Origin: Parabacteroides sp.
GTDB taxonomy: Bacteria > Bacteroidota > Bacteroidia > Bacteroidales > Tannerellaceae
Reading direction: 5' to 3'
Assembly: GCA_020860905.1 (NCBI GenBank)
Contig: JAJBTJ010000279.1
Location: 1 to 37,391 of the forward strand
DNA length: 37,391 bases
Part shown: piece by piece, positions 20,911-33,855 of the stretch
Layout: the number at the start of each line of letters is the position of its first letter
Numbering within the stretch: position 1 is the stretch's first letter
Translations under genes and position numbers: made by a program
Notes under the pieces: generated by a model
What the model saw: only the letters and a program-made list of their open reading frames with translations
The model's database searches: none
What the model was told of the DNA's origin: nothing

Positions 20911-21002
20911 CATTACGGGGAACGGATGAAAAGGACAGCCTGAAACCGGGTTTATCCGGGCAAGCCGGAAAAAATGCCTGTTTACTGAAATTCCGTAAAT
21001 AA

Positions 21003-21036
21003 TAAAAAAGCAACCGGCTCGTGACGAGCCGGTTGC
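21003..21036 (-). terminator. Intrinsic terminator of aguA-aguB
   Basis: GCAACCGGCTCGTGACGAGCCGGTTGC hairpin with a T tract on the minus strand. Confidence 0.8.
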
Positions 21037-21174
21037 CTCGGTATGTTTATTGACTTAATATCCCAAAGAAATGAAAAGCTGTTGTGGCAAAGGTTATTTC
21101 CGGCCGGAAAGCACAACCCCGGCCTTCGTAACAAAAACCGGGGGCTTCGTTTCTTTTACAATCGGCCCGTGGAG

Positions 21175-23822: not shown

Positions 23823-23900
23823 ATATCTTTGCTTCGCACAATCGAAAATAAGCTGCACGAAGAGGCCTGTTTTCACTCCCGGATTGCTTTCCTTTGCCGG
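23823..23900 (+). repeat. Degenerate relative of the element inserted at 6565-6648, in the dps-oxyR intergenic region
   Basis: TATCTTTGCTT..CGAAAATAAGCTGCAC...CCTGTTTTCACTCCCGGATTGC vs TATCTTTGCTT..CGAAAATAGGCTGCAC...CTTGTTTCTGCTCTCGGTTTGC, with an internal gap. Confidence 0.55.
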
Positions 23901-24034
23901 CCCGGAACAAAATGAAGAAAGTGATAAGAGCGAGCCGGGTGCTGCTTCCGGATTATAAAAGAGGAAGATTCAATGCCGGGAAAGGAGAACATACGCGTTC
24001 CTTGTACGACCATACATTATTAAATATATATTCC

Positions 24035-24961
24035 ATGAACCTGCAACAACTCGAATACATCCTGGCCGTAGACACCTACCGCCATTTCGCCAAAGCAGCC
24101 GAGCACTGCCGCGTTACCCAACCCACACTCAGTATGATGATTCAGCGCCTCGAGGAGGAAATCGGCGCCAAGATATTCGACCGGAGCAGCCAGCCCGTGC
24201 AACCCACTCTGTTAGGCGAGCGCATTTTGAAACAGGCCCGGAGCATCCTGCACGAAACGGCGCTAATCCGGGAAATCGTGCACGAGGAAGAAGGTTCGTT
24301 AAAAGGCAAATTCAAGCTCGCCATCTTGCCCACTATCGCCCCCTACCTGCTCCCCCGGTTCTTCCAACAAATGACCGACCGCTATCCCGAACTCGACATC
24401 CAACTGATGGAGATGCAAACACAGCCCTCGCTGGCGGCATTGCTCGACGGCGAACTCGATGCTGCTCTTATCGCCTCCGAGCCGGTCAACCCGCGGCTAC
24501 AAAGCGAAATACTTTTTTACGAACAGTTCTTCGGCTATGTTTCCAAAAACGAGCCGGTTTACCAGCACGAGTTGATACGCACGGCCGACATCAACGGCGA
24601 AAGGCTCTGGTTGCTCGACGAAGGGCATTGTTTCCGCGACCAGCTGGTGCGGTTCTGCAAAATGGAAAAGGTGAAAGTGCGCCAGGCGGCCTACCGGCTG
24701 GGCAGCATGGAAACATTCATGCGTATGGTAGAAAGCGGCAACGGGATTACGTTTATCCCCGAACTGGCGGTTTCGCAGTTGAACGAAGAGCAGAAAAAGC
24801 TGGTGCGACCGTTCGCCATCCCCCGCCCTACCCGGCAAATCAACCTGGTTACCCGCAAAGATTTCATCCGGCATTCCATCCTGGAGATACTGAAAAAGTG
24901 TATCCGCGAATCGGTTCCCAAAGAGATGCTCACGTTGCACAACACGCAAAAGCTGATGTAA
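24035..24961 (+). CDS. oxyR: Hydrogen-peroxide-responsive LysR-family regulator OxyR
   Basis: N-terminal 'MNLQQLEYILAVDTYRHFAKAAEHCRVTQPTLSMMIQRLEEEIGAKIFDR'; redox Cys pair 'LLDEGHCFRDQLVRFC'. ATG at 24035. Confidence 0.93.
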   Translation: MNLQQLEYILAVDTYRHFAKAAEHCRVTQPTLSMMIQRLEEEIGAKIFDRSSQPVQPTLLGERILKQARSILHETALIREIVHEEEGSLKGKFKLAILPTIAPYLLPRFFQQMTDRYPELDIQLMEMQTQPSLAALLDGELDAALIASEPVNPRLQSEILFYEQFFGYVSKNEPVYQHELIRTADINGERLWLLDEGHCFRDQLVRFCKMEKVKVRQAAYRLGSMETFMRMVESGNGITFIPELAVSQLNEEQKKLVRPFAIPRPTRQINLVTRKDFIRHSILEILKKCIRESVPKEMLTLHNTQKLM

Positions 24962-24971
24962 CGGGCAGAAC

Positions 24972-25070
24972 AGGCCGGGGGCGTTGCCTAACTTGCCGAC
25001 GCCCTCGGCTATATTGCCAACGGCGTCGTTTATTTTGCCAAGGGCGTCGGCAAACGAATCGTACGGCAAC
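24972..25070. repeat. 99-bp element: four 21-bp units plus 15-bp tail (copy A)
   Basis: Units at 24972, 24993, 25014 and 25035: AGGCCGGGGGCGTTGCCTAAC / TTGCCGACGCCCTCGGCTATA / TTGCCAACGGCGTCGTTTATT / TTGCCAAGGGCGTCGGCAAAC, then GAATCGTACGGCAAC. Confidence 0.8.
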
Positions 25071-25210: not shown

Positions 25211-25234
25211 TCACCGTAATAAACAAACAGAACA

Positions 25235-25309
25235 ATGGCTAATTTCTTTTTTGCATACTTTTATTTTTACTTTTACTTTAGCAGAGTAAGGGCAGGAATT
25301 TGTATGTGA
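25235..25309 (+). CDS. Phe/Tyr-rich leader peptide of the pheA operon attenuator
   Basis: ATG GCT AAT TTC TTT TTT GCA TAC TTT TAT TTT TAC TTT TAC TTT AGC AGA GTA AGG GCA GGA ATT TGT ATG TGA = MANFFFAYFYFYFYFSRVRAGICM*. 11 of 24 residues are Phe or Tyr. Confidence 0.88.
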   Translation: MANFFFAYFYFYFYFSRVRAGICM

Positions 25310-25360: not shown

Positions 25361-25383
25361 GGCAACGGCGGGACTTTTTTTTT
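25351..25383 (+). terminator. Attenuator terminator upstream of pheA
   Basis: AAGTCCTGCCG-GCAA-CGGCGGGACTTTTTTTTT: stem of at least 10 bp (one G-U) and a T tract. Confidence 0.9.
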
Positions 25384-25408
25384 GAAGAAAAAGAAAAAAA
25401 GAAAAAGG

Positions 25409-26251
25409 ATGAAACGAGTAGCAATACAAGGCATCGCAGGGTCGTATCACGACATAGCAACGCGCAATTATTTCGAAGGCGAAGAAGTGGAAATCGTACC
25501 CTGCAATACGTTCAGGGAGGTGATTGCCGCGATGAAAAAAGAGCCGAACTTACTGGGGATGATGGCAATAGAAAATACGATAGCCGGCAGCCTGTTACAA
25601 AACCACGAGTTGATACGCGAAAGCGGTTTCACCATCATCGGCGAATACAAGCTGCGCATCACCCACTCGCTGGTAGCTCTTCCCGGAACGAATATCCACG
25701 ACATCAAAGAAATCAACTCGCATCCCATCGCCCTGATGCAATGCACCGAGTTCTTAGACACGTTACCGAACGTAAAGGTGGTGGAAAAAGGAGACACCGC
25801 CATGAGCGCCCGCTGGATTGCGCAGAACAAGCTGGAGGGGCACGCCGCCATTTGCGGCAAGCAGGCTGCCGGGATTTACGGCATGGAAGTGCTGGCCGAA
25901 GGAATCGAAACAAACAAGCGGAACTTCACCCGTTTCCTGGCCATCAGCGATAGATGGAATGCCGACGATTTGCTGCGCGACACTTATAAAAACAAGGCGT
26001 CGATTGTTTTCGCCGTTCCCCATACGGCAGGCAGCCTGTCGAAGGTGTTGTCGGTGCTTTCGTTTTACGATATGAATCTATCGAAGATACAATCCCTGCC
26101 GATTATCGGGCGCGAGTGGGAATACCTGTTTTACATCAATCTGTGCTTTACCGATTACACCCGTTACAAGCAGGCAATGGATGCCATTATTCCTCTTACC
26201 AAGGACTTCAAAATTTTAGGTGAATATGCAGAAGGAAAACAAAGCGTGTAA
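25409..26251 (+). CDS. pheA: Prephenate dehydratase with ACT domain
   Basis: 'RVAIQGIAGSYHDIATRNYF', 'GMMAIENTIAGSLLQNHELI', 'KRNFTRFLAI', ACT region 'GSLSKVLSVLSFYDMNLSKIQSLPIIGREWEYLFYINL'. ATG at 25409. Confidence 0.94.
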   Translation: MKRVAIQGIAGSYHDIATRNYFEGEEVEIVPCNTFREVIAAMKKEPNLLGMMAIENTIAGSLLQNHELIRESGFTIIGEYKLRITHSLVALPGTNIHDIKEINSHPIALMQCTEFLDTLPNVKVVEKGDTAMSARWIAQNKLEGHAAICGKQAAGIYGMEVLAEGIETNKRNFTRFLAISDRWNADDLLRDTYKNKASIVFAVPHTAGSLSKVLSVLSFYDMNLSKIQSLPIIGREWEYLFYINLCFTDYTRYKQAMDAIIPLTKDFKILGEYAEGKQSV

Positions 26252-33667: not shown

Positions 33668-33756
33668 GCAGACGGATTCGCGAACGGATAAAAAACAGGC
33701 GGATGCCTTGTAAAAAATCAAACGCAGAAACGCAGAACAATCGATTTGACTTCTTG

Positions 33757-33855
33757 CTGCCGGCGTCGCCAGCTATTTTGCCGCCGACGCTGGCAGGTTT
33801 GTCACCGACGCCGTTTTTATTGCCGGCGTCGGCGGCAAACAAATCCGTAGGCAAC
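33757..33855. repeat. 99-bp element: four 21-bp units plus 15-bp tail (copy B)
   Basis: Units at 33757, 33778, 33799 and 33820: CTGCCGGCGTCGCCAGCTATT / TTGCCGCCGACGCTGGCAGGT / TTGTCACCGACGCCGTTTTTA / TTGCCGGCGTCGGCGGCAAAC, then AAATCCGTAGGCAAC. Confidence 0.8.

Follow-up and report, generated by a model that had tools for sequence, protein, structure and literature searches.

Two copies of a four-dyad element

The window (the whole stretch of 37,391 nucleotides of Parabacteroides sp. DNA that was analysed) contains two copies of a short intergenic element, which we call copies A and B (Table 1). Copy A follows a gene for a LysR-family regulator of the OxyR type (this annotation is based on Pfam): its left end is 5 bp past the stop codon of this gene, and its first dyad is 12 bp past it. 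By a fixed 15+6 parse and by alignment, copy A is made up of four 15-bp dyads, which are separated by 6-bp linkers (TAACTT, TATATT, and TATTTT, in order) and closed by 7-bp inverted ends.

The original prediction was that four 21-bp units lie in an element of 99 bp at this place, and that a second element in the window has the same architecture. The four units are there, and matches elsewhere in the source genome, together with a pattern control (see below), rule out a chance arrangement. The predicted limits were wrong: the element is 92 bp long and lies a few bases upstream of them, and the sequence to its right, GTACGGCAAC, belongs to the flank. The second element, copy B, has the same parse into dyads and linkers, with dyads that start at 33759, 33780, 33801, and 33822.

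Table 1. Features of the window. Positions are those of the window.
Feature	Positions	Strand	Basis
Terminator-like module of a larger composite, without the core	20995-21064	-	Match to query positions 17-87
LysR-family regulator (OxyR-type) gene, ends just upstream of copy A	23894-24961	+	Pfam HTH_1, LysR_substrate
Copy A, whole four-dyad element, 92 bp	24967-25058	+	Fixed 15+6 architecture parse and alignment A1
Copy A, left inverted end, decayed (family consensus TTCGTTT)	24967-24973	+	Alignment
Copy A, dyad 1, GCCGGGGGCGTTGCC	24974-24988	+	
Copy A, dyad 2, GCCGACGCCCTCGGC	24995-25009	+	
Copy A, dyad 3, GCCAACGGCGTCGTT	25016-25030	+	
Copy A, dyad 4, GCCAAGGGCGTCGGC	25037-25051	+	
Copy A, right inverted end, AAACGAA	25052-25058	+	
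Copy B, whole four-dyad element	33752-33843	+	Architecture parse and alignment
Copy B, right end, AAACAAA	33837-33843	+	

Beyond copy A, a short open reading frame at 25234-25308 (MANFFFAYFYFYFYFSRVRAGICM) closely precedes a prephenate dehydratase gene (25382-26251) and resembles a leader peptide of a Phe/Tyr attenuator. The Rfam Phe_leader model matches there with 26.6 bits, which is under the cut-off for the family.

A dispersed family with a fixed layout

We searched the source genome (3.65 Mb in 337 contigs, 86% complete) with the DNA of copy A and obtained dozens of matches, the best of them, other than copy A itself, with E = 6.8e-20. A second query added further matches, and a profile search of the retrieved stretches located about 36 intergenic copies. 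A 171-kb sample of contigs that were not selected for matches contained one copy. The pattern of the palindromic unit occurred 28 times in the source genome, versus 0 times for a reversed-pattern control. The element is thus a dispersed family: it is not limited to the two loci in the window, and its further copies keep the 21-bp phase.

The layout follows the rule TTCGTTT-(15)-6-(15)-6-(15)-6-(15)-AAACGAA, with a period of 21 bp and usually four dyads. About 18 copies in the source genome have four dyads; the rest have three, two, or one, always as whole units, and a few decayed copies depart from the 15+6 layout. The 18 four-dyad copies align without gaps over 96 columns, with a mean column identity of 78%. 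A simple tandem repeat or minisatellite is ruled out by the one to four phased dyads and the inverted ends. Separately, near base 255 of contig C140 (L095), there are four 22-bp dyads (TATCAAAAGAACTTTTGATA) that may represent a second family.

Many of the copies lie within a longer repeat that has an arm on either side of them, and its left arm contains a terminator together with GTGCAGGTTAA...ACATGCTGCTG. The arms have a fixed orientation, and the core between them is found in both orientations. For example, between C120 and C266, the left arms are 91% alike and the right arms 71% alike, while the cores are 95% alike if one of them is inverted and 63% alike if compared directly. The same pattern was seen for C120/C316, C17/C4, and C90/C133a. 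This implies that the core inverts, or inserts either way around, independently of the arms.

Near-identical rho-independent terminators (AAAAGCAACCGG...CCGGTTGCTTTT) are also found genome-wide, including the terminator-like module in Table 1, and often make up the left-hand portion of a larger composite. The larger composite has the ends GGGATATTC...GAATATCCC, and one copy, on contig C195, has TACGGA on both sides.

The same layout with other sequences in relatives

We built a covariance model (CM R1) from the source-genome copies and ran it on 125 genomes of the family. (Copy A scores 72.5 bits with this model, but copy A was itself part of the model.) At E <= 0.01, 42 of the 125 genomes had matches, some of which are ordinary tandem arrays or weak matches, and the best match outside of the source genome had E = 4.4e-17. 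The copies in other genera share the architecture, but their sequences are quite different. Their dyads are 15 or 16 bp long and are followed by a 6-bp linker, for a period of 21 or 22 bp. Over the copies examined, including those of the source genome, the end sequences were TTCGTTT/AAACGAA, ATCTGTT/AACAGAT, and WATTCTG/CAGAATW. One relative (G018) has 95 outer units, versus 0 for the reversed-pattern control, with a period of 22 bp and units spaced by 66 or sometimes 44 bp. The only other genome of the same genus in this search (G001) had no element. Among about 290 genomes of the order from outside the family, just one genome matched at 1e-6 (G380), and it has four 21-bp dyads in the same layout with a new sequence.

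The matches in genus g12 were long tandem arrays, which we set aside as not being the element. One example is the long 21-bp tandem array GTCGACGTTGTCGCGAAGAAT (L130), an ordinary repeat that is also matched by the model.

The dyads covary as units. In the source genome, we observed 27 double changes, versus 14.9 for shuffled data (0/500), and across genera, we observed 72, versus 31.5 (0/500). The 7-bp outer inverted ends also covary strongly across genera. We rejected the idea that the conserved structure is a single long hairpin, which showed no excess of covariation in the source genome (28 versus 27.8); unlike in the source genome, covariation of the long hairpin does appear across genera.

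We also searched 814 kb, with no information about sequence, for sets of four dyads that share one fixed period and are closed by an inverted repeat. Four-dyad arrays turned up 19 times at period 21 and 12 times at period 22; these numbers should not be read as densities, because most of the scanned loci were fetched for known copies. There were no four-dyad arrays at periods 18-20 or 23-26 in the 814 kb, and none in shuffled controls. Four of the matches are unrelated in sequence. Searches of the respective genera with two of these four (from G008 and G098) showed that each belongs to a multi-copy family that is essentially confined to its species and whose matches are about 90-98 nt long. 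These two families are a successful prediction from the architecture alone. Near position 2742 of L226 (G090), four 21-bp dyads (TATCTTTAGGCTAAAGATA) have another unrelated sequence in the same layout.

Insertion, inversion, and homogenization

In five species of genus g15, the element has an Smr-type gene on one side and a CYTH-type gene on the other (these names were read from the translations). In many other species of this genus, the same two genes are separated by 0-26 bp. The comparison of the filled and near-empty sites implies that about 220 bp was inserted. The relatives that we compared (locus 1, G018 relatives) are too divergent at the ends of the insertion for target-site duplications to be defined, and the matches from a search for empty sites of the G018 copies did not reach across the junctions.

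At another orthologous locus (locus 4), two species have the inner block, which lies between dyads 2 and 3, turned around: of its 14 positions, 12-14 match in the inverted orientation and 5-7 in the direct one. Differences between orthologs are near zero in the arms of the dyads and highest in their central four bases. Across 21 elements from five genomes, dyad centers differ by 1.31 mismatches from those at other loci of the same genome, versus 2.05 from the same locus in another genome and 2.09 from other genomes overall (p = 0.004, permutation test), whereas the linkers track the locus (0.91 versus 1.98 mismatches). The family also offers a natural test of concerted repeat evolution within genomes, with centers that move genome-wide and linkers just 3 bp away that do not.

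A proposed mechanism and its rivals

Dispersal, insertion polymorphism, inversion and loss bounded by dyads, homogenization of the centers, and a noncoding, intergenic nature are all read from the sequences themselves. Our best reading, held with moderate confidence, is a short, mobile intergenic element that is non-autonomous and has up to four dyad sites and inverted ends. The recurrence of the layout with different sequences suggests that such elements form a class of mobile DNA that rearranges itself and is so far little known.

We propose that a sequence-specific protein would bind each dyad as a dimer, on double-stranded DNA; this protein might be a transposase, a recombinase, or a host DNA-binding protein that the element uses. 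With dyads two helical turns apart, the four dimers would share one face of the helix, and the pairing of dyads would lead to inversions, losses, and homogenization. The dyad center would be the part that determines specificity and would co-evolve with the protein, which would give each species its own sequence on a common scaffold. No binding protein, transposase, or autonomous or parent copy of the element was found in this analysis. If the dyads are protein sites, then the elements would point to a DNA-binding or recombining protein in a Bacteroidales-type family.

The original prediction had left three options for the element: a structured RNA, a protein-binding array with same-face spacing, or a dispersed heptad-coding cassette. 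The second of these is favored, as judged from the occurrence of just the periods 21 and 22 across families of unrelated sequence. This spacing is expected for sites on the same face of B-DNA, whereas RNA hairpins do not need it. Alternatively, the spacing could be the legacy of a single ancestor and not the result of selection. A more specific version of the protein-binding idea is that these are site-specific recombination cassettes that are defined by their architecture: a recombinase would pair, invert, and excise the four same-face dyads, the center would be an exchange region that matches genome-wide, and each species would have its own version. We regard this version as speculative and would not expect it to hold.

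The dyads might instead be passive quasi-palindromes that are not recognized by any protein and that change only by template switching during replication and by gene conversion. Inversion and the loss of units could arise from template switching at quasi-palindromes without a dedicated enzyme, and units within one element are more alike than units from different elements (p = 0.0005), which is what one would expect from local template switching. Against this, the centers are common across loci in one genome and the linkers 3 bp away are not. Also, new loci have been filled, so some route of insertion exists. We think that a purely passive origin is unlikely, if not markedly so.

It seems rather improbable that the element acts as a structured RNA, with hairpins at the 3' ends of transcripts that serve, for example, as bidirectional terminators or mRNA stabilizers. 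The predicted folds of the elements are strong (z down to -8.7), the composites also carry rho-independent terminators, and the location of the copies in the source genome fits: of the 25 classified sites, 16 are flanked by convergent genes, a setting that makes up 22% of intergenic bases (p = 6e-6). (For these counts, genes were called with a simple codon-usage caller.) But most copies in G018 and in genus g15 are between tandem or divergent genes, so the 3'-end bias that had been suggested for the element is present in the source genome and does not extend to these relatives. Furthermore, the spacings are only 21 and 22 bp, although arrays of hairpins have no need for the helical repeat, and the element did not match any curated RNA family in Rfam.

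We are more doubtful that the element is of the REP/REPIN type and owes its mobility to a RAYT (Y1 HuH) transposase that works on single-strand hairpins. The element does have a REPIN-like form, with inverted palindromes, compensatory changes, intergenic locations, and species-specific sequence, and some of the genomes that carry it contain a Y1 gene. But Y1_Tnp is absent from the source genome (which is 86% complete), and several relatives with the element, such as G060, G070, G079, and G094, have no Y1 gene. The palindromes that flank the RAYT loci of G018, G065, G066, and G019 are other ones. Beside the RAYT genes that we examined, the covariance model found no convincing element, apart from a degenerate copy in G018 at a distance of about 1 kb. 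Nor does the element have a GTAG or CGTC tag at the base of its palindromes. Because of these absences and the other repeats at RAYT loci, we consider RAYT to be unlikely as the mover and do not file the element as a REPIN. In relatives, the RAYT genes at L190, L191, L192, and L196 are flanked by their own palindromes, such as ATCCCGAAGGGAT and CCGTCAGTT...AACTGACGG, which are unrelated to the element.

Finally, a dispersed heptad-coding cassette is barely credible and is refuted for the whole family: although the frames [FLIV]AD[AS][LV]G[NK] are open on both strands (because the dyad reads GCC-NNN-NNN-NNN-GGC) and 21 bp is seven codons, differences between orthologs are spread nearly evenly across codon positions (127/111/154), there are in-frame stops in 7 of 18 copies on the forward strand and 3 of 18 on the reverse, none of about 86 copies that we checked is inside a called gene, and the period in other genera can be 22 bp.

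Comparison to known repeat families

We read the element as working like a REPIN, BIME, or MITE. It has the insertion polymorphism of MITEs (filled and empty orthologous sites), terminal inverted repeats (7 bp, covarying), and no coding capacity. Iterons and transposase-binding arrays also contain repeated protein sites of about 22 bp that are two helical turns apart, and they are located at replication origins or at transposon ends beside their gene. In contrast, the element is free and dispersed, and its units are dyads.

Bacterial repeat families are normally found by sequence similarity, while what is conserved here is four dyads, two turns apart, with inverted ends. Because the geometry is maintained as the letters are replaced between species, ordinary similarity searches would miss such elements. 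We did not find a description of this family in the open-access literature that we searched.

As in REP, BIME, and REPIN sequences (PMC3116915, PMC3733652), the element consists of short, intergenic, inverted palindromes in tens of copies, with species-specific sequence, compensatory changes, and a mosaic of palindromes and linkers. Unlike them, it has four phased dyads at 21 or 22 bp, keeps its scaffold while its sequence is replaced, and lacks both the GTAG/CGTC tag and an association with RAYT.

The CGTC repeats, which include dRS3 of Neisseria and RPE-4 and RPE-6 of Rickettsia, are mostly inverted dimers, and no dedicated transposase is known for them (PMC3733652). The element resembles them in having palindromes of a similar size and no known dedicated transposase. 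It differs in lacking a CGTC tag and a CCA-like tail. Also, the CGTC repeats are mainly monomers or dimers and some are within genes, while the element forms phased tetramers and was never found in genes.

The nearest published element from the Bacteroidales is BrickBuilt, a MITE of Porphyromonas gingivalis that is strictly intergenic and has tandem 23-nt units, inverted ends, and about 20 copies (PMC4596501). Its units are direct repeats (AGAYCATARTATCCTCTCRTRTG), with up to 18 per copy, and its ends (GAGACCTTTGCA) match elements of the IS5 family (PMC4596501). The TAnnTTTG promoter box is absent from both strands of the 18 cores, but as just 0.36 occurrences were expected, this is uninformative about a promoter role like that of BrickBuilt. 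Both elements are from the Bacteroidales, are strictly intergenic, and contain repeated units in a small element with inverted ends, but the element that we describe has a period of 21 or 22, four units that are dyads, and a different sequence and different ends.
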